Below are positions 21,259 through 28,587 of a stretch of DNA of 63,728 nt, piece after piece. Under the pieces are notes generated by a model. That model made no database searches, was not told the DNA's origin, and saw only the letters and a list, made by a program, of their open reading frames with translations. Origin of the DNA: Pseudomonadota bacterium (GTDB lineage Bacteria; Desulfobacterota; Desulfobulbia; Desulfobulbales; CALZHT01); contig JAHJJF010000031.1 in NCBI GenBank assembly GCA_018823135.1, positions 1 through 63,728 of the forward strand, written 5' to 3'. Every line of letters starts with the position of its first letter. The stretch's first letter is position 1. The position numbers and the translations under genes were made by a program.

Positions 21259-22374
21259 ATGTCCCAGAATTATTACGAAATACTCGGCGTCTCTTCCTCT
21301 GCTTCAAAGGATGAAATAAAAAAGGCCTACAGAAAACAGGCCATGAAATATCATCCCGACCGGAACCAGGGTGACAACGAGGCCGAAGAAAAATTCAAAG
21401 AGGCCACCGAAGCGTATGAAGTTCTCGGCGATCCAGAAAAACGCGGCATTTACGACCGCTACGGGATTGAAGGACTTAAGAATACCGGCTACAGCGGTCC
21501 CGGCAATTTTGAAGATATTTTCTCCAATTTCGGCGACATTTTCGGCGATATTTTCGGATTCGGTTCAAGCAGAGGCGGTGGAAGCCGAAGACAAGGCCCG
21601 ATTCAGGGTTCTGATCTGCGGTACGACCTGAGTATCAGTTTCATGGAGGCGGTTCACGGCCTTGAAAAAGAAATTGAAATTATTAAGCCCGATACCTGCT
21701 GGACATGCGAAGGCACCGGACTGAGACCAGGACATAAACCCCAAACCTGCAGCACATGCAACGGCATGGGGCAGGTAATCCGCGCCCAGGGACCTTTCCG
21801 CTTAAGTACAACCTGCCCAACCTGCGCCGGCTCCGGAGAAATGATTTCCGATCCATGCATGGATTGCGAAGGCAAAGGCCTGATCAGCAAGCAGAAAAAA
21901 GTTTCCCTGAAGATCCCGGCCGGCGTTGATACCGGTGCCAGGATGCGACTTAAAAACGAGGGAGAAGGTGGACGCAGGGGTGGCCCGTCGGGAGACCTTT
22001 ATGTGATGATTTACGTTGATCCACATGAAATCTTCCATCGACAGGAAAACGATATTTTTATTGAGTTCCCGGTTTCTATTGTCCAGGCATCCTTAGGGGA
22101 CAAACTCAAAATTCCAACCATTCACGGCCAGAGTAAACTCAAAATACCCTCAGGAACCCAGCCCGGCCAGATTTTCACTTTAAAATCCGAAGGGGTCCCT
22201 TCTTTACGGGGCAAGAGCCGTGGCGACATGCATGTGGAAATCAAGGTAATAATCCCGACCAAGCTCACAGACAGACAGAAAGAACTGTTAAAAGAGCTTG
22301 AAGCAATAGAAAACGAAAAAGGCGAGACCCACGAAGAGGGATTTTTAAAAAAAATATTCAACATCTCCGCGTAA
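21259..22374 (+). CDS. dnaJ: Molecular chaperone DnaJ
   Basis: The 371-residue co-chaperone stimulates DnaK ATPase. It has a J domain with HPD at 32-34, a Gly/Phe-rich segment (about 75-115), four zinc-binding CxxCxGxG repeats ([32 protein letters not shown]) between about 145 and 205, and the C-terminal substrate-binding domain. Length and all motifs are standard for type I DnaJ. dnaK and grpE are not in the window. Confidence 0.96.
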
Positions 22375-22459
22375 GAAGCCAGGGGTTTGACGATGATGTT
22401 ATGGCTCCCCTTTATAAAGGAGCGCACGGCAGTTTTATTTGAGAGTCTGGCAAGATACA

Positions 22460-22488
22460 TTGGACTTTTACGGGGCAAGAGTTACAAT
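22460..22488 (+). promoter_or_regulatory. Candidate promoter for moaC
   Basis: TTGGAC (22460-22465) and TACAAT (22483-22488, five of six) with a 17-base spacer, 26 bases before the moaC ATG. The -35 is poor. Confidence 0.3.
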
Positions 22489-22514
22489 AAATTGCACTGA
22501 CTGACGGAGATTTA

Positions 22515-23018
22515 ATGGCTGATGCCGAACTGACCCACTTTGATGCGCAAGGCAATGCCCGGATGGTTGATATCGGCTCCAAGGCGGATACTTTTCGGGA
22601 AGCGGAGGCAGCTGGATCGATTATCATGTCTGCCGAAACGTATCGACTGGTCAAAGAAGGCGGCATTGCCAAGGGTGATGTTTTAGGAACGGCGCGGCTT
22701 GCGGCCATCATGGCGGCAAAAAAAGTTGACAGCCTGATCCCACTTGCTCATCCCCTGGCGATAACCAAGGCTGAGGTCAACTTTGAATACATTGATTCAG
22801 CCAGAAAAATTGATATTTTTGCAAGTGTTGCAGTAAACGGCAAAACCGGCGTTGAAATGGAAGCCCTGACCGCTGTTGCAATAGCTGCTTTGACAATTTA
22901 TGATATGTGCAAGGCGGTGGACAAGGGCATGATAATAGAAAATATCCGGCTTCTTACGAAAACCGGAGGAAAAAGCGGATCATACAGGCGGGCCGGAACG
23001 GGCTCCACCATGAGATAG
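22515..23018 (+). CDS. moaC: Cyclic pyranopterin monophosphate synthase MoaC
   Basis: The 167-residue enzyme converts the MoaA product to cyclic pyranopterin monophosphate in molybdenum/tungsten cofactor synthesis. It shows the family motifs [17 protein letters not shown] and [29 protein letters not shown] lies upstream of the ATG. The other moa genes are absent here. The DksA/TraR gene starts 26 bases after the stop. Confidence 0.95.
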
Positions 23019-23044
23019 AACAGGAAAGAGGGAGAACGACCAAT

Positions 23045-23407
23045 ATGGACAAAAAACAACTCGATCATTTCAAAACCAAGCTTCAGGACATGAGCAAAGA
23101 CCTCCTGGATGAAGCTGAAAAAACCATACACGATATGACGGATCATAATGACAACTATCCTGATCCCACGGACCGAGCATCAGCTGAATCAGACCGAAGC
23201 TTTGAACTCCGCATCCGCGATCGCGAAAGAAAGCTTCTCTCCAAAATCAAAAGCGCTATTGAGCGAATTGATGAGGGATCTTACGGCATCTGTGACGAAT
23301 GCGGCGATGACATATCCATCAAACGCCTTGAAGCAAGACCTGTCACAGGTCTATGCATTGAATGCAAAACCAAGCAGGAAAATTACGAAAAAGCACAAAA
23401 AGGTTAA
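23045..23407 (+). CDS. DksA/TraR-type zinc-finger transcription factor
   Basis: The 120-residue protein has a coiled-coil N-terminal hairpin with an acidic tip (DPTDRASAESD, residues 40-50) and a C4 zinc finger with Cys83, Cys86, Cys104 and Cys107. Such proteins enter the secondary channel of RNA polymerase and modulate initiation, often with ppGpp. The length is shorter than E. coli DksA (151) and typical of the DksA-like proteins of this phylum. ATG 23045 has GGGAGA upstream. galT starts twelve bases after the stop. Confidence 0.9.
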   Translation: MDKKQLDHFKTKLQDMSKDLLDEAEKTIHDMTDHNDNYPDPTDRASAESDRSFELRIRDRERKLLSKIKSAIERIDEGSYGICDECGDDISIKRLEARPVTGLCIECKTKQENYEKAQKG

Positions 23408-23419
23408 ACGGCGAGAATA

Positions 23420-24424
23420 ATGCCTGAACTCCGCAAAGACCCGGTAATCGGCCGCTGGATAATTATTTCCACCGAACGGGGCAAACGACCAACTGATTTC
23501 ATTATTACCAAGGACGAAACCAAAAACGGCTTTTGCCCTCTTTGTCCTGGCAATGAAAACACCACCCCGCCGGAAGTCTTGAGTTACGGACAGCATGGCT
23601 ATATGCCCAACCGCCCCGGCTGGGATTTACGGGTTGTTCCCAATAAATACCCGGCCCTGATTATTGAGGGAGACATCGGCAAACAAGGCGACGGGCTATA
23701 TGACAAGATGAACGGCATCGGTGCCCATGAGGTCGTAATTGAAACCCCCAATCACCTTGAATCCTTCACCCACATACCTCCGGCAAGAATGATCAAGGTC
23801 TTTCTGGCCTTTCGCGACCGGCTGGTTGATTTAAGCCATGATCCTCGTTTTCGATATGTGATGATCTTCAAGAATTACGGCGGCGCAGCCGGCGCATCCC
23901 TTGAACATTCGCATTCGCAACTCATCGCCCTGCCGATCCTTCCCAGAATGATCGTCTCGGAGCTTGACGGCAGCCATTCCTATTATAGCTATAAGGAACG
24001 ATGCATTTTCTGCGACATCATCCGCCAGGAAGTCAACCAGGATGTAAGGGTCGTCTGCCAGAACGATTATTTTATTTGCATGACACCATGGGCACCGCGT
24101 TCGCCCTTTGAAATGTGGGTCCTGCCCAAAGAGCATTCATCATCCTACGTAACGCAGAGTGATGCATCATTTAAAGCCCTTTCTGAAATTTTTTCAGAAA
24201 GCATGCTGCGCCTGAATAAATGCATCCCAAATGTTCCTTATAATTTTGTTCTGCACACAGCTCCTCTGAGATCACCCCCCCTGGAACATTTCCACTGGCA
24301 TTTTGAAATAATGCCTAAATTAACAATGATTGCAGGCTTTGAGTGGGGCTCGGGTTTTTATATCAATCCGGTCCCGCCCGAGGAAGCTGCAAAATATCTG
24401 AAAGACGCTGAAATCCAGGAGTAA
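23420..24424 (+). CDS. galT: Galactose-1-phosphate uridylyltransferase
   Basis: The 334-residue protein transfers UMP between UDP-glucose and galactose-1-phosphate or a related sugar phosphate. It has the HIT-superfamily catalytic motif HSHSQ (163-167), the zinc-site pair FCPLC near residues 39-42, NKYPAL, and the second histidine cluster EHFHWHFEI near 290. No other Leloir genes are near, so it may act with ADP- or UDP-sugars in another pathway, as some GalT relatives act as phosphorylases. Confidence 0.9.
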   Translation: MPELRKDPVIGRWIIISTERGKRPTDFIITKDETKNGFCPLCPGNENTTPPEVLSYGQHGYMPNRPGWDLRVVPNKYPALIIEGDIGKQGDGLYDKMNGIGAHEVVIETPNHLESFTHIPPARMIKVFLAFRDRLVDLSHDPRFRYVMIFKNYGGAAGASLEHSHSQLIALPILPRMIVSELDGSHSYYSYKERCIFCDIIRQEVNQDVRVVCQNDYFICMTPWAPRSPFEMWVLPKEHSSSYVTQSDASFKALSEIFSESMLRLNKCIPNVPYNFVLHTAPLRSPPLEHFHWHFEIMPKLTMIAGFEWGSGFYINPVPPEEAAKYLKDAEIQE

Positions 24425-24517
24425 TTTGAAATTAATCTGCGGAGTTCATCCTTTTTGTTTTCACCTTTGCGCTTTGAACCAAAAACATACCAACCTGACA
24501 CCTCATGGGGTACTCGG

Positions 24518-24871
24518 ATGAAAAACAAGATCCTGCTCATAGATGACGAAGACAGCATCCATCTTCTTTATCGGGAAGAATTTGAAGAAGAGGGCTATGA
24601 AGTGCATTCGGCGCTTTCCGCAGAAGAGGGCATAGAAAAACTTAATATTTTCTCTCCTGACATTATCATCCTCGATATAAACATGCCTGGCATGAACGGC
24701 ATCGACGCCTTGCGTAAAATAAAAGGGATCAACCCCGATCTCCCGGTGATCTTAAGCTCTGCGTATCAGGAGTTCAAACAGGACCTGGCTTCATGGGCAT
24801 CTGACGATTACATTGTCAAATCTTCCAACCTCGACGAGTTGAAAGCTGCGGTGAAACGTCTTCTTTCCTGA
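24518..24871 (+). CDS. Single-domain response regulator
   Basis: The 117-residue protein is a receiver only: acidic pair DDE near residues 9-11, phospho-acceptor Asp53 in ILDINMPGMNG, a conserved Ser in LSSAYQ and the Lys of YIVKSS. No output domain is present. It precedes the FolE2-like gene by 50 bases. Its partner kinase is not evident; the two hybrid kinases in the window already have receivers. I use ATG 24518, where the receiver begins; 21 codons upstream are open. Confidence 0.88.
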   Translation: MKNKILLIDDEDSIHLLYREEFEEEGYEVHSALSAEEGIEKLNIFSPDIIILDINMPGMNGIDALRKIKGINPDLPVILSSAYQEFKQDLASWASDDYIVKSSNLDELKAAVKRLLS

Positions 24872-24921
24872 TCCACGACAGTTTTGCCAAACCCAGTGAG
24901 CCCTGCCGAGAAATCCCAGCC

Positions 24922-25677
24922 ATGAAGGACATCCAGAGCCAGCCCGACCATCGTCGCATCAACATCAAAAAGGTCGGAGTCAAGGACATTTCCTACCCCA
25001 TAACCGTCCTTGACAAGGCTGAAAGACACCAGAAGACCATTGCCAAGGTCAACATGTACGTGAGCCTGCCCCATCATTTCAAGGGTACTCACATGAGCAG
25101 ATTTATTGAAATACTCAACCGTTTCCATGGCGATATAAATATCCAGAGTTTCCACCGCATCCTGGAAGAAATGAAGGCGAAACTTCAGGCCGAGGCGGCG
25201 CATATGGAAATTGAATTCCCCTATTTCCTGAAAAAAAAATTCCCCCACCCCAACTCGTCGGAAATGGCAAAATACATCTGCAGAATGCACGGGTCGCTCA
25301 CCGATAAGGATAATCTGACCCTGAATGTCAAGGTGCCCATCTCACCGCCCCTGCCTTCCCAGACATATCATGGTTTACCACGGTCCCTCGGCAACTGGGG
25401 TATTGCCGACATCAGTCTGCAGTTCAAACATTTTTTCTGGATTGAAGACCTGATCCAGATGGTTGAGGAAGTTACTTCTTATCATTTGGCCAAACCCGAG
25501 GACCCGCGAGATGATGAAGCAAACTCTTCCCTGACCGTGGAAGCGCTGACCAAGTCCCTGGGCAACAAACTGAAAACTCATCCGGATATCAAATGGTTTT
25601 CTGTCCTGGTTGAAAATTTATCAGAAGGTTTCAGCACTTTTGCATCGCTTGAATGGCCTGAAACAACTCAAAACTAA
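24922..25677 (+). CDS. FolE2 (GTP cyclohydrolase IB) family protein lacking catalytic residues
   Basis: The 251-residue protein aligns along its length with FolE2: the N-terminal RRINIKKVGVKDISYPITV, the highly conserved KGTHMSRF, FHRILEEMKAKL and the FPYF.KK strand are present. However, the segment that in active FolE2 reads LCPCSKE..​.GAHNQR, with the zinc/catalytic Cys and His, here reads SPPLPSQTYHGLPRSLGNWG (residues 141 on), and the C-terminal ESIHNH motif is replaced by LSEGFSTFA. The only expected acidic helix kept is IEDLIQMVEE. FolE2 normally opens GTP to dihydroneopterin triphosphate; this copy is unlikely to do so and may be a repurposed or regulatory paralogue. It lies just after a single-domain response regulator. 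Confidence 0.85.
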   Translation: MKDIQSQPDHRRINIKKVGVKDISYPITVLDKAERHQKTIAKVNMYVSLPHHFKGTHMSRFIEILNRFHGDINIQSFHRILEEMKAKLQAEAAHMEIEFPYFLKKKFPHPNSSEMAKYICRMHGSLTDKDNLTLNVKVPISPPLPSQTYHGLPRSLGNWGIADISLQFKHFFWIEDLIQMVEEVTSYHLAKPEDPRDDEANSSLTVEALTKSLGNKLKTHPDIKWFSVLVENLSEGFSTFASLEWPETTQN

Positions 25678-25762
25678 CTGGTTACAGCCTCGCACCCGCT
25701 TGTCGGACCGCCTTAAATTGTTCAATGCGCCAAAAGATAAAAGCATCCCTAATGGTTAAAAA

Positions 25763-26314
25763 ATGATATTTAAAAAAAGAAAAAAATCCCTGCAAGAACG
25801 TTACCCTCAGTATGAATTTGGTCGAGAAACTTATGGTCACCTGCAAGTTCATTCATGGGGAGAGGGTGCTACCTTGAAGGTTGGGTCTTTTACTTCCATC
25901 GCCCCTGGTGTTCAAATATTCCTCGGCGGCGAGCACCGGCTTGATTGGGTTACAACATTTCCATTTAATTCATTTTGGGCAGAAGCGAAAAACTTGTTTG
26001 GCCATCCCAAAACCAAAGGGGACGTCCTCATCGGTAATGATGTGTGGCTTGGGGCGGAGTCCCTTATCATGTCCGGCGTAACAATAGGTGACGGAGCGGT
26101 AATTGGAGCACGAGCGGTGGTCACAAAAGACGTCCCCGCTTATGCAGTTGTTGCAGGAAATCCTGCAATAGTCGTTAAACGAAGATTTGATGACAAAACA
26201 ATACAACGTTTCCTGGTTGTTAAGTGGTGGGGTTGGAGCGATTCCAGAATTAAAGAAGCGCTTCCCCTGCTGCTCAATAATGACATCGAAAACTTTCTAG
26301 CCTTTGCTGAATGA
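25763..26314 (+). CDS. CatB-related O-acetyltransferase (xenobiotic acyltransferase type)
   Basis: The 183-residue protein has the left-handed beta-helix hexapeptide pattern (IGNDVWLGAESLIMSGVTIGDGAVIGARAVV) and the catalytic His58 in GEHRLDW of the XAT group. A C-terminal KKWW-type segment (VVKWWGWSD) is typical. Members acetylate chloramphenicol, streptogramins, or surface sugars. The upstream sequence has no strong ribosome binding site and the AT-rich first codons differ from neighbours, so it may have been acquired. The substrate is not determined. Confidence 0.88.
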   Translation: MIFKKRKKSLQERYPQYEFGRETYGHLQVHSWGEGATLKVGSFTSIAPGVQIFLGGEHRLDWVTTFPFNSFWAEAKNLFGHPKTKGDVLIGNDVWLGAESLIMSGVTIGDGAVIGARAVVTKDVPAYAVVAGNPAIVVKRRFDDKTIQRFLVVKWWGWSDSRIKEALPLLLNNDIENFLAFAE

Positions 26315-26511
26315 AAAAGACTTCTCGACTTTTAATCGCGTCAACTGGAACTGGCCCGGACATTGCTGCACTCTCGCAACACAGAAAATCGCCCTTTTTT
26401 ACAAAGCCACTGACAAATTACCCTTGAGCTATCCTTTTACGCATGTAATAGTGGGCGTTTTGAATCAACCGCAGATCAATAATCAAATTTAAGGGTTAGC
26501 TGACCAGACAG

Positions 26512-28587
26512 ATGAAGAACGAACTTGTATTTGAAATCGGCACCGAAGAAATCCCGGCAGGCTTCATTCTCCCCGCCTTAAATGATCTCAAAACCCTGCT
26601 TGGGAAAAAACTTGTCACCCTTTCCCTTGCATATGAAACCATTGACGGCGCAGCCACTCCGAGACGTTTTGCACTCAACGTAACCGGACTTTCAGATAAA
26701 CAGCCGGACAGAAAGGAAGAAATTCTCGGCCCCCCGAAAAAGGCGGCTTTTGATGCGGACAACAACCCCACCAGAGCCGCTCTCGGTTTTGCACAATCAA
26801 ATAATGTCGATGTGAAACAGCTGCAGGTTATCACAACTCCCAAGGGTGAATATGTAATGCTCGCCCTGGAAAAGAACGGCAAGGACGCCCGGGAAATTCT
26901 CTCCACCCTGCTTCCTGAAATCATTGGGGAAATAAACTTTCCTAAATCAATGCGCTGGGGCACGGGAACAACCAGCTTCGCAAGGCCGATTCAGTGGATC
27001 ACTGCCGTGTATAACGGTGAGATTGTTCCCTTTACCATTGAAAGACTTACAAGCGGCAACACCACCAGAGGGCACCGGTTTATGGCGCCGGAGGCATTCG
27101 CTGTCACCGATTACGCCGGATACGTTGACGCGTTGCGCTGCGCCCATGTCATTGTATCCCCCGTGGAAAGAAAAAAAAGGGTGCTCGCAGAAATTACCCG
27201 TGCAGCCGAAACGGCCAATGGCCGGATTCTCGAAGACGATGAGCTGGTGGATACGGTGACAAATCTTGTTGAAGAGCCAAATGCCATCTGCGGCTCATTT
27301 GACCGGAAATTCCTCGAACTTCCCAGGGAAGTACTCATCACCTCCATGCGGGAACATCAGAAATATTTTGCGGTTACCGATGCCAACGGCGCTCTTCTGC
27401 CCCATTTCATCGCGGTCAACAACACCAAAGTAAAAAACGCAACTGTTGCGGCCGAAGGCCATCAACGCGTATTGAGAGCACGACTCGAAGATGCGATGTT
27501 CTTCTTCAAAGCGGACCAGCACCGAACCCTTGCAGACCGGGTCAACGACCTTTCGGGAATCATCTTTCAGGCAAAACTCGGCACCCTTTATGAAAAAACC
27601 CAGCGGCTGACCCGGCTTGCCCAAAAGCTTGCAGAAAAGATCGCGCCGGATCAAATCGATCTGGCAATCAGGGCTGCCCTGCTTGCAAAAACCGATCTGC
27701 TCACTTCCATGGTCAATGAATTCCCCTCATTGCAGGGAATCATGGGGAAAGCCTATGCCATCCTTGACAAAGAACCTGCAGAGGTTGCCACGGCAATCCA
27801 TGAACATTACCTCCCGGTCAGGGCTGGCGGCGAGCTCCCCACAGGGATAATCAGCGCTCTGGTGGGCATTGCCGACCGCATTGATACAATCGCCGGCTGT
27901 TTCGGCATTGGCCGGACTCCCACCGGCACAACCGATCCTTTTGGGCTGAGAAGACAGGCTCTGGGATTGCTCAACATCTTAGAAAAACATCAGATCAGTC
28001 TCTCTTTAGACTGGCTGATTAATGAGGCTTTCATTCTATATGGCGACAAACTGACAGAAAATCCGGACAAGGCCAAACAGAACATCATGCAGTTTATCAA
28101 AGGCCGGTATATCAATGATCATGTATCCCGCGGCGTGGTTCCGGAAGCTCTTGAAGCCGCGACTTCCGTCTCATTCGATGATCCGGTGGACTGTTCTTTA
28201 AGAACCAGGGCGTTAGCCGATGTCAGCTCCGAAGAAACCTTTACGATCCTCGCAGGCGCTTTCAAACGGGTTGTGAACATCATCAAGGAAAATCAAAATA
28301 CTTCGGTCAACCAGGATCTCTTAACGGAAGCCGGGGAAAAAGCCCTCTATACCGCATTTCAAAAAACAAAAGCAAAAGCAGAACCCCTTATTGCGCAGCA
28401 AAAATATAAAGAGGCAATGAAGGAAATTCTGTCGATGAAAGACCCGGTGGACAGCTTCTTCGATGGTGTAATGGTAATGGTCGATGATGTGGAATTACGG
28501 GAAAACCGGCTGGCACTTTTAACATCAATTGCCGAGCTCTTTCTCAAGATCGGTAATTTTTCAAAAATGTATTCCGTAAAAAGTTGA
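26512..28587 (+). CDS. glyS: Glycyl-tRNA synthetase beta subunit
   Basis: The 691-residue protein begins ELVFEIGTEEIPAGF, as in bacterial GlyS, has the HD-like core segment (GKAYAIL.KEP..VA.AI.EHYLP), FGLRRQALG and a C-terminal anticodon-binding part with DPVDSFFDGVMV. It works only with the alpha subunit GlyQ as an alpha2beta2 enzyme. glyQ, usually directly upstream, is not present in this window; an acetyltransferase gene precedes glyS by 197 bases in which I see no gene. The ATG lacks a clear ribosome binding site. Confidence 0.95.
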   Translation: MKNELVFEIGTEEIPAGFILPALNDLKTLLGKKLVTLSLAYETIDGAATPRRFALNVTGLSDKQPDRKEEILGPPKKAAFDADNNPTRAALGFAQSNNVDVKQLQVITTPKGEYVMLALEKNGKDAREILSTLLPEIIGEINFPKSMRWGTGTTSFARPIQWITAVYNGEIVPFTIERLTSGNTTRGHRFMAPEAFAVTDYAGYVDALRCAHVIVSPVERKKRVLAEITRAAETANGRILEDDELVDTVTNLVEEPNAICGSFDRKFLELPREVLITSMREHQKYFAVTDANGALLPHFIAVNNTKVKNATVAAEGHQRVLRARLEDAMFFFKADQHRTLADRVNDLSGIIFQAKLGTLYEKTQRLTRLAQKLAEKIAPDQIDLAIRAALLAKTDLLTSMVNEFPSLQGIMGKAYAILDKEPAEVATAIHEHYLPVRAGGELPTGIISALVGIADRIDTIAGCFGIGRTPTGTTDPFGLRRQALGLLNILEKHQISLSLDWLINEAFILYGDKLTENPDKAKQNIMQFIKGRYINDHVSRGVVPEALEAATSVSFDDPVDCSLRTRALADVSSEETFTILAGAFKRVVNIIKENQNTSVNQDLLTEAGEKALYTAFQKTKAKAEPLIAQQKYKEAMKEILSMKDPVDSFFDGVMVMVDDVELRENRLALLTSIAELFLKIGNFSKMYSVKS

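Follow-up and report, generated by a model that had tools for sequence, protein, structure and literature searches.

A FolE2 paralogue of Desulfobulbales as a probable subunit of a GTP cyclohydrolase IB divided over two genes

The D-type gene and its locus

The window (the whole stretch of 63,728 nucleotides that was analyzed) carries at positions 21259-28587 a block of genes in the order dnaJ-moaC-dksA/TraR-like-galT-receiver-D-glyS, which is conserved across Desulfobulbales (about 50 loci). D denotes a gene for a protein related to GTP cyclohydrolase IB (FolE2), referred to here as D-type (Table 1). The order dnaJ-moaC-dksA-galT-receiver-D-glyS recurs in nearly all of 51 D-type loci. A gene for a hexapeptide-repeat transferase lies between D and glyS in the window (25763-26314), where most relatives have just a short gap. 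The initial annotation had drawn attention to the placement of D behind a receiver-only response regulator. Indeed, this gene is a conserved neighbor, found directly upstream of D in 50 of the 51 loci, but it is not tied to D function because it stays behind at loci without D. A role of the receiver domain as a regulator for D was therefore ruled out.

Table 1. Positions of the D-type gene, its parts and neighbors in the window, and of the third PF02649 paralogue of the source genome
Feature	Position	Strand	Remark
galT-like gene	23420..24424	+	neighbor within the block
Receiver-only response regulator, PF00072	24518..24871	+	neighbor, not part of the enzyme
D-type FolE2 paralogue (putative subunit), 251 aa	24922..25677	+	N-terminal site residues kept; Zn/Cys/His/Glu residues lost
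N-terminal segment MKDIQSQPDHR (D3, Q5, D9, R11)	24922..24954	+	invariant in D-type and canonical FolE2, missing from C-type
KGTHMSRF, residues 54-61	25081..25104	+	start of first helix of T-fold module 1
SPPLPSQTYHGLPRSLGNWG	25342..25401	+	site of the lost CPCSKE...HNQR loop
Site of the lost LLKRPDEKYVTE stretch	25486..25536	+	partly deleted
ENLSEGFSTFA	25612..25644	+	site of the lost ENFESIHNHSAYA; new motif NLxxGYSTFA common in D-type
glyS	26512..28587	+	downstream end of the block; neighbor
Third PF02649 paralogue, MptA/FolE2-like, 316 aa	L002:1441-2388 (G000:C136:17842-18627)	-	RGIHMSR, ACPC, HSQR, ESIHIH

The D-type protein matches PF02649 with 149.4 bits (cut-off 25), its residues 1-232 aligning with positions 1-249 of 260 in the model, which bears out the full-length similarity to FolE2, KGTHMSRF included, that had been noticed from the sequence. 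On the FolE2 equivalog NF010200 (NCBIfam) it reaches only 128.8 bits, below the cut-off of 215 that canonical FolE2 (L084, 308.4 bits) exceeds. In FolE2 the metal is coordinated by Cys, His and Glu side chains from the CPC, HNQR and ESIHNH segments. In the window protein the CPC position reads L144-P145-S146, the HNQR position L156-G157-N158-W159 and the ESIHNH position S-E-G-F, and the LLKRPDEKYVTE stretch is replaced or deleted. Among 36 aligned D-type orthologues, all carry KGTHMSR, each together with the N-terminal DIQ..D.R segment in one chain, and none carries CPC, HNQR, LKRxDE or ESIHxH (0/36 each). The orthologue alignment revealed no conserved Cys or His displaced from the lost motifs to a nearby position: the sole conserved Cys of the C-terminal half, C120, is common to C-type (see below) and canonical FolE2, and the sole conserved His is H123. 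Because 36 of 36 orthologues from independent genomes agree and both halves of the protein have an omega below 1 (median 0.17 in the N-terminal and 0.37 in the C-terminal half), the altered motifs do not stem from a sequencing error, and both a frameshift and a decaying pseudogene were ruled out. The loss of the CPC, HNQR and ESIHNH residues described in the initial annotation thus stands against both objections raised there, namely Cys/His residues displaced nearby and an error hiding CPCSK, and the clade with a shared altered motif that it had asked about exists, the D-types forming one clade with full support (100/100).

This clade is sharply bounded. About 50 close relatives in genome contigs (L033-L083; 46-72% identical) all possess the altered C-terminal half, and below them the matches switch abruptly to FolE2 proteins that are complete and share 40-46% identity (L084-L112). 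When a D-type profile (A1) was run against 394 genomes of the phylum, scores of at least 303 bits occurred only within Desulfobulbales, and the other matches listed did not exceed 295 bits. All 20 matches taken from outside the order (L119-L138) have every canonical motif.

A second paralogue with mirror-image losses

A profile search detected three PF02649 genes in the source genome. One of them (G000:C126; L001), here called C-type, starts at MKLKSVGIK and is therefore without the DIQ..D.R segment, and it reads RRQRENCIATF at the KGTHMSRF region. It keeps CPCSKE, HNQR, LLKRPDEK and ESIHKH. The same mirror-image losses were found in 29 C-types read from relatives, with KGTHMSR in 0/29 and CPC, HNQR, LKRxDE and ESIHxH in 29/29 each. 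Hence the metal-binding and catalytic residues of CPC, HNQR and ESIHNH, united in one chain in none of the 36 D-types, are united in every C-type partner, and canonical FolE2 has all five motifs in 28 of 28 proteins. As a separate observation, residue 45 of C-type (canonical H57) is a Cys in place of the His of KGTHMSR; it is invariant in the 29 aligned proteins (RE[ST]CVSTF) and absent from the most divergent C-types.

The complementarity extends beyond the motifs. Canonical deltaproteobacterial FolE2 has 84 invariant alignment columns; of these, D alone keeps 26, C alone 39, both keep 15 and neither keeps 4. Independent losses would leave about 15 columns in the last class (Fisher p = 2e-7, a value that overstates the case because neighboring alignment columns are not independent). 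Moreover, the four columns kept by neither are mild cases: Y46 and H52 are still retained in 69-86% and L225 in 83% of D-types, the fourth being N246. Mean identity in the N- and C-terminal halves is 75 and 44% for D, 60 and 74% for C and 67 and 65% for canonical FolE2, and median omega for C is 0.21 and 0.15, the reverse of the order in D. In the most divergent pairs, the two faces that we propose below to be dead are eroded further and the proposed live faces are untouched: the KGTHMSRF region is scrambled in the C-type of G012 and in those of its relatives, and the whole CPC-HNQR loop is deleted from G012's D-type. Since each paralogue is without the opposite half of the active site, C and D most likely work only when assembled together.

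It might be argued that C-type functions as a GTP cyclohydrolase by itself, as a homomer, and that D-type is a pseudoenzyme that binds, regulates or stabilizes it. No metal-binding or catalytic motif is missing from C-type, which scores above the NCBIfam FolE2 cut-off (237.3 bits against 215), and the regulation of active paralogues by pseudoenzymes is a familiar phenomenon (PMC11266112). However, C-type is devoid of KGTHMSR and DIQ..D.R, which are invariant in all canonical FolE2 proteins examined and which D keeps letter for letter; the most divergent C-types, with a wholly scrambled KGTHMSRF region, make solitary activity harder still to picture. A mere regulator would have no reason to preserve precisely these residues, nor to vanish together with C where a complete FolE2 exists (see below). 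We consider this explanation unlikely.

C and D are not neighboring genes. In the D loci examined they were not found side by side, and an arrangement as one operon was ruled out for these loci.

Co-occurrence, joint loss and other GTP cyclohydrolases

We tallied C and D from the per-genome profile-search rows of 160 Desulfobulbales genomes that are at least 90% complete. Both genes were present in 147 genomes, D only in 8, C only in 2 and neither in 3 (Fisher p = 0.002, with the genomes treated as independent though they are related). Where just one gene turned up (ten genomes), the assembly is in each case a draft broken into 140 contigs or more, and all 14 single-contig genomes possess both genes.

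The three genomes without C and D belong to one genus (g279: G457, G458 and G459). Each has exactly one PF02649 gene, which encodes a complete FolE2 with both motif sets scoring 309-313 bits (L113-L116). At the former D locus of this genus, dnaJ-moaC-dksA-galT-receiver are contiguous and D is missing right after the receiver gene (read in G457 and G458, and for the galT-receiver part in G459). Because the block is contiguous through the receiver gene, the absence of D cannot be put down to an assembly gap. The receiver gene is followed in this genus by an sppA-like ORF. In a tree that took it as outgroup, the g279 FolE2 has a long branch and falls outside the deltaproteobacterial proteins, and it was therefore likely gained horizontally, probably from outside the phylum, with loss of both native genes. 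The joint loss of C and D is a single evolutionary event, yet it is the event that a heteromer predicts.

These data also bear on the idea that D-type works by itself and catalyzes a new, metal-free reaction, with a GTP- or pterin-like compound as ligand. The D-type clade is conserved and under purifying selection, has motifs of its own (GLPRSLGxWG and NLxxGYSTFA) and shows strict synteny, as would befit such an enzyme. But its C-terminal half is the fast-evolving one (44% identity), the altered loop is wholly deleted in divergent members such as L171, and no new conserved catalytic-looking set has taken the place of the old one. As a new reaction would also leave the mirror-image loss in C-type and the joint loss unexplained, we regard this idea as very improbable. 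The initial annotation had proposed that the protein either is a pseudoenzyme or catalyzes a new reaction. The conserved clade with altered motifs behind that proposal holds up; given a complementary second paralogue and the linked loss of both genes in one genus, we favor a subunit of a heteromeric GTP cyclohydrolase over either of these.

GTP cyclohydrolase is the starting enzyme of folate synthesis, and HPPK is a later folate enzyme. A profile search for type IA FolE (PF01227) gave no match in 58 relatives and one in the 160 Desulfobulbales genomes. That sole match (G475:C83:7182-7718) lies in an assembly with 8% contamination. In 13 of 15 closed or near-closed genomes, C and D are the only members of PF02649, and all 19 genomes tested for HPPK possess it. 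Without type IA FolE, with C and D as the sole PF02649 genes and with HPPK present, C and D are the only candidates for the GTP cyclohydrolase step in those genomes.

The third PF02649 gene of the source genome adjoins a glycosyltransferase-like ORF, is present in complete form in 26 of 58 relatives and possibly encodes another GTP cyclohydrolase-type enzyme. One could therefore suppose that this paralogue is the real GTP cyclohydrolase and that the C-D complex has another role, since it has RGIHMSR, CPC, HSQR and ESIH. Yet it fails the cut-offs for both MptA (154.8 bits against 220) and FolE2 (127.2 against 215), and the 13 of 15 closed or near-closed genomes that have neither it nor type IA FolE nevertheless have HPPK. 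We give this supposition hardly any credence.

Structural models, proposed assembly and origin

AlphaFold2 models of D (pLDDT 82.4) and C (pLDDT 89.8) both consist of two tandem T-fold modules. In a structure search the best match was FolE2 for each, with 8g6c for D (Z 21.7) and 8g8v for C (Z 27.7), and the next match after FolE2 was urate oxidase (Z about 14; 14.8 over the whole length). FolE2 (GTP cyclohydrolase IB; PF02649, NF010200; PDB 3d2o, 5k95, 2r5r, 8g6c) resembles D-type in fold, length and N-terminal half. In the solved relatives a single gene carries both motif sets, whereas Desulfobulbales have the sets divided over two genes, with D below the equivalog cut-off.

Urate oxidase, like C and D, has two tandem T-folds per chain. 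Two of its chains close into a barrel that has an active site at each of its two dimer interfaces (PMC5138847). The ligand is bound between two protomers, and each site is shared between chains, with Thr57, Lys10 and Ile54 of the N-terminal module coming from the partner and Asn254 from the other chain (PMC7792999). Unlike C and D, urate oxidase is a homomer with all sites alive and with unrelated chemistry, and it serves as a geometric precedent only. The residues kept by D only lie at positions 3-11, just ahead of the first strand, and 51-60, at the start of the first helix. These would be the topological places that match the site residues of the urate oxidase N-module, as judged from secondary structure rather than a residue-level alignment. 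Because KGTHMSRF is invariant and because of the parallel with urate oxidase, we place it, by analogy, in the FolE2 active site across the interface.

We propose that GTP cyclohydrolase IB (FolE2) most likely exists throughout Desulfobulbales as a heteromer of two obligate subunits, one of which is encoded by the window gene. As in urate oxidase, C and D would together build a single barrel of tandem T-folds. At the live interface, the N-module of D (DIQ..D.R, KGTHMSRF) would face the C-module of C (CPC, HNQR, LKRPDE, ESIHxH), and at the dead interface the N-module of C would lie against the C-module of D, both faces being eroded. The product made from GTP by the complex would be 7,8-dihydroneopterin triphosphate, for use in folate synthesis. 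Complementary residue retention and co-occurrence with joint loss (147 of 160 genomes with both genes; 3 of 160 with neither and one complete FolE2) speak for such a heteromer; the separate location of C and D, the third complete paralogue in 26 of 58 relatives and the ten fragmented genomes with one gene count against it. Somewhat less firmly, but still as the likely course of events, we suggest that a core folate enzyme became an obligate two-gene heteromer across a whole order through complementary erosion of the two faces of its own interface, so that each barrel retains a live site beside a dead one, and that one genus escaped by gaining a complete single-gene enzyme. The window gene is most likely one half of a split enzyme, a variant of the known FolE2, rather than a lone pseudoenzyme.

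The open literature searched contained no description of FolE2 as a heteromer. Related divisions of labor are known. In bimodular QueF, two duplicated T-fold modules have divided the QueF motif and the catalytic Cys/Glu between them, and these come together at a site between the domains (PMC5372742); that division lies inside one fused polypeptide, whereas the one between C and D lies between two unlinked genes. The RNase III editing endonucleases of trypanosomes are reported to be paralogues that specialized after duplication and work as a heterodimer with one catalytic partner (PMC9508840), whereas C and D are each without the half that the other keeps.

If this is correct, duplication, degeneration and complementation would have acted within a single active site, a clean natural example that spans an order: sister groups would show the ancestral state and dozens of genera the derived one, which gene replacement would have reversed once. 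It would make the change from homomer to obligate heteromer in central metabolism testable, and nature itself would have sorted the residues of FolE2 by the subunit that contributes them. For annotation, it implies that C-type, whose score earns it the name FolE2, is probably unable to function on its own and that D-type, which falls under the cut-off, is probably essential.

Regarding the origin, C-types likewise form one clade (100/100), and both clades are on long branches within the deltaproteobacterial FolE2 radiation, at one fork. C and D as sister clades are neither supported nor rejected (p-AU 0.498). As the data do not reject C and D as one clade, a duplication in the ancestor of Desulfobulbales is possible and the simplest assumption; most likely, one FolE2 would have duplicated there, followed by complementary degeneration. 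Independent splits were not found among five genomes with two matches outside Desulfobulbales. Four of these have complete copies plus fragments or broken genes. The fifth, the closed genome G425, has two complete FolE2 copies (L144 and L152), possibly resembling the state before the split.
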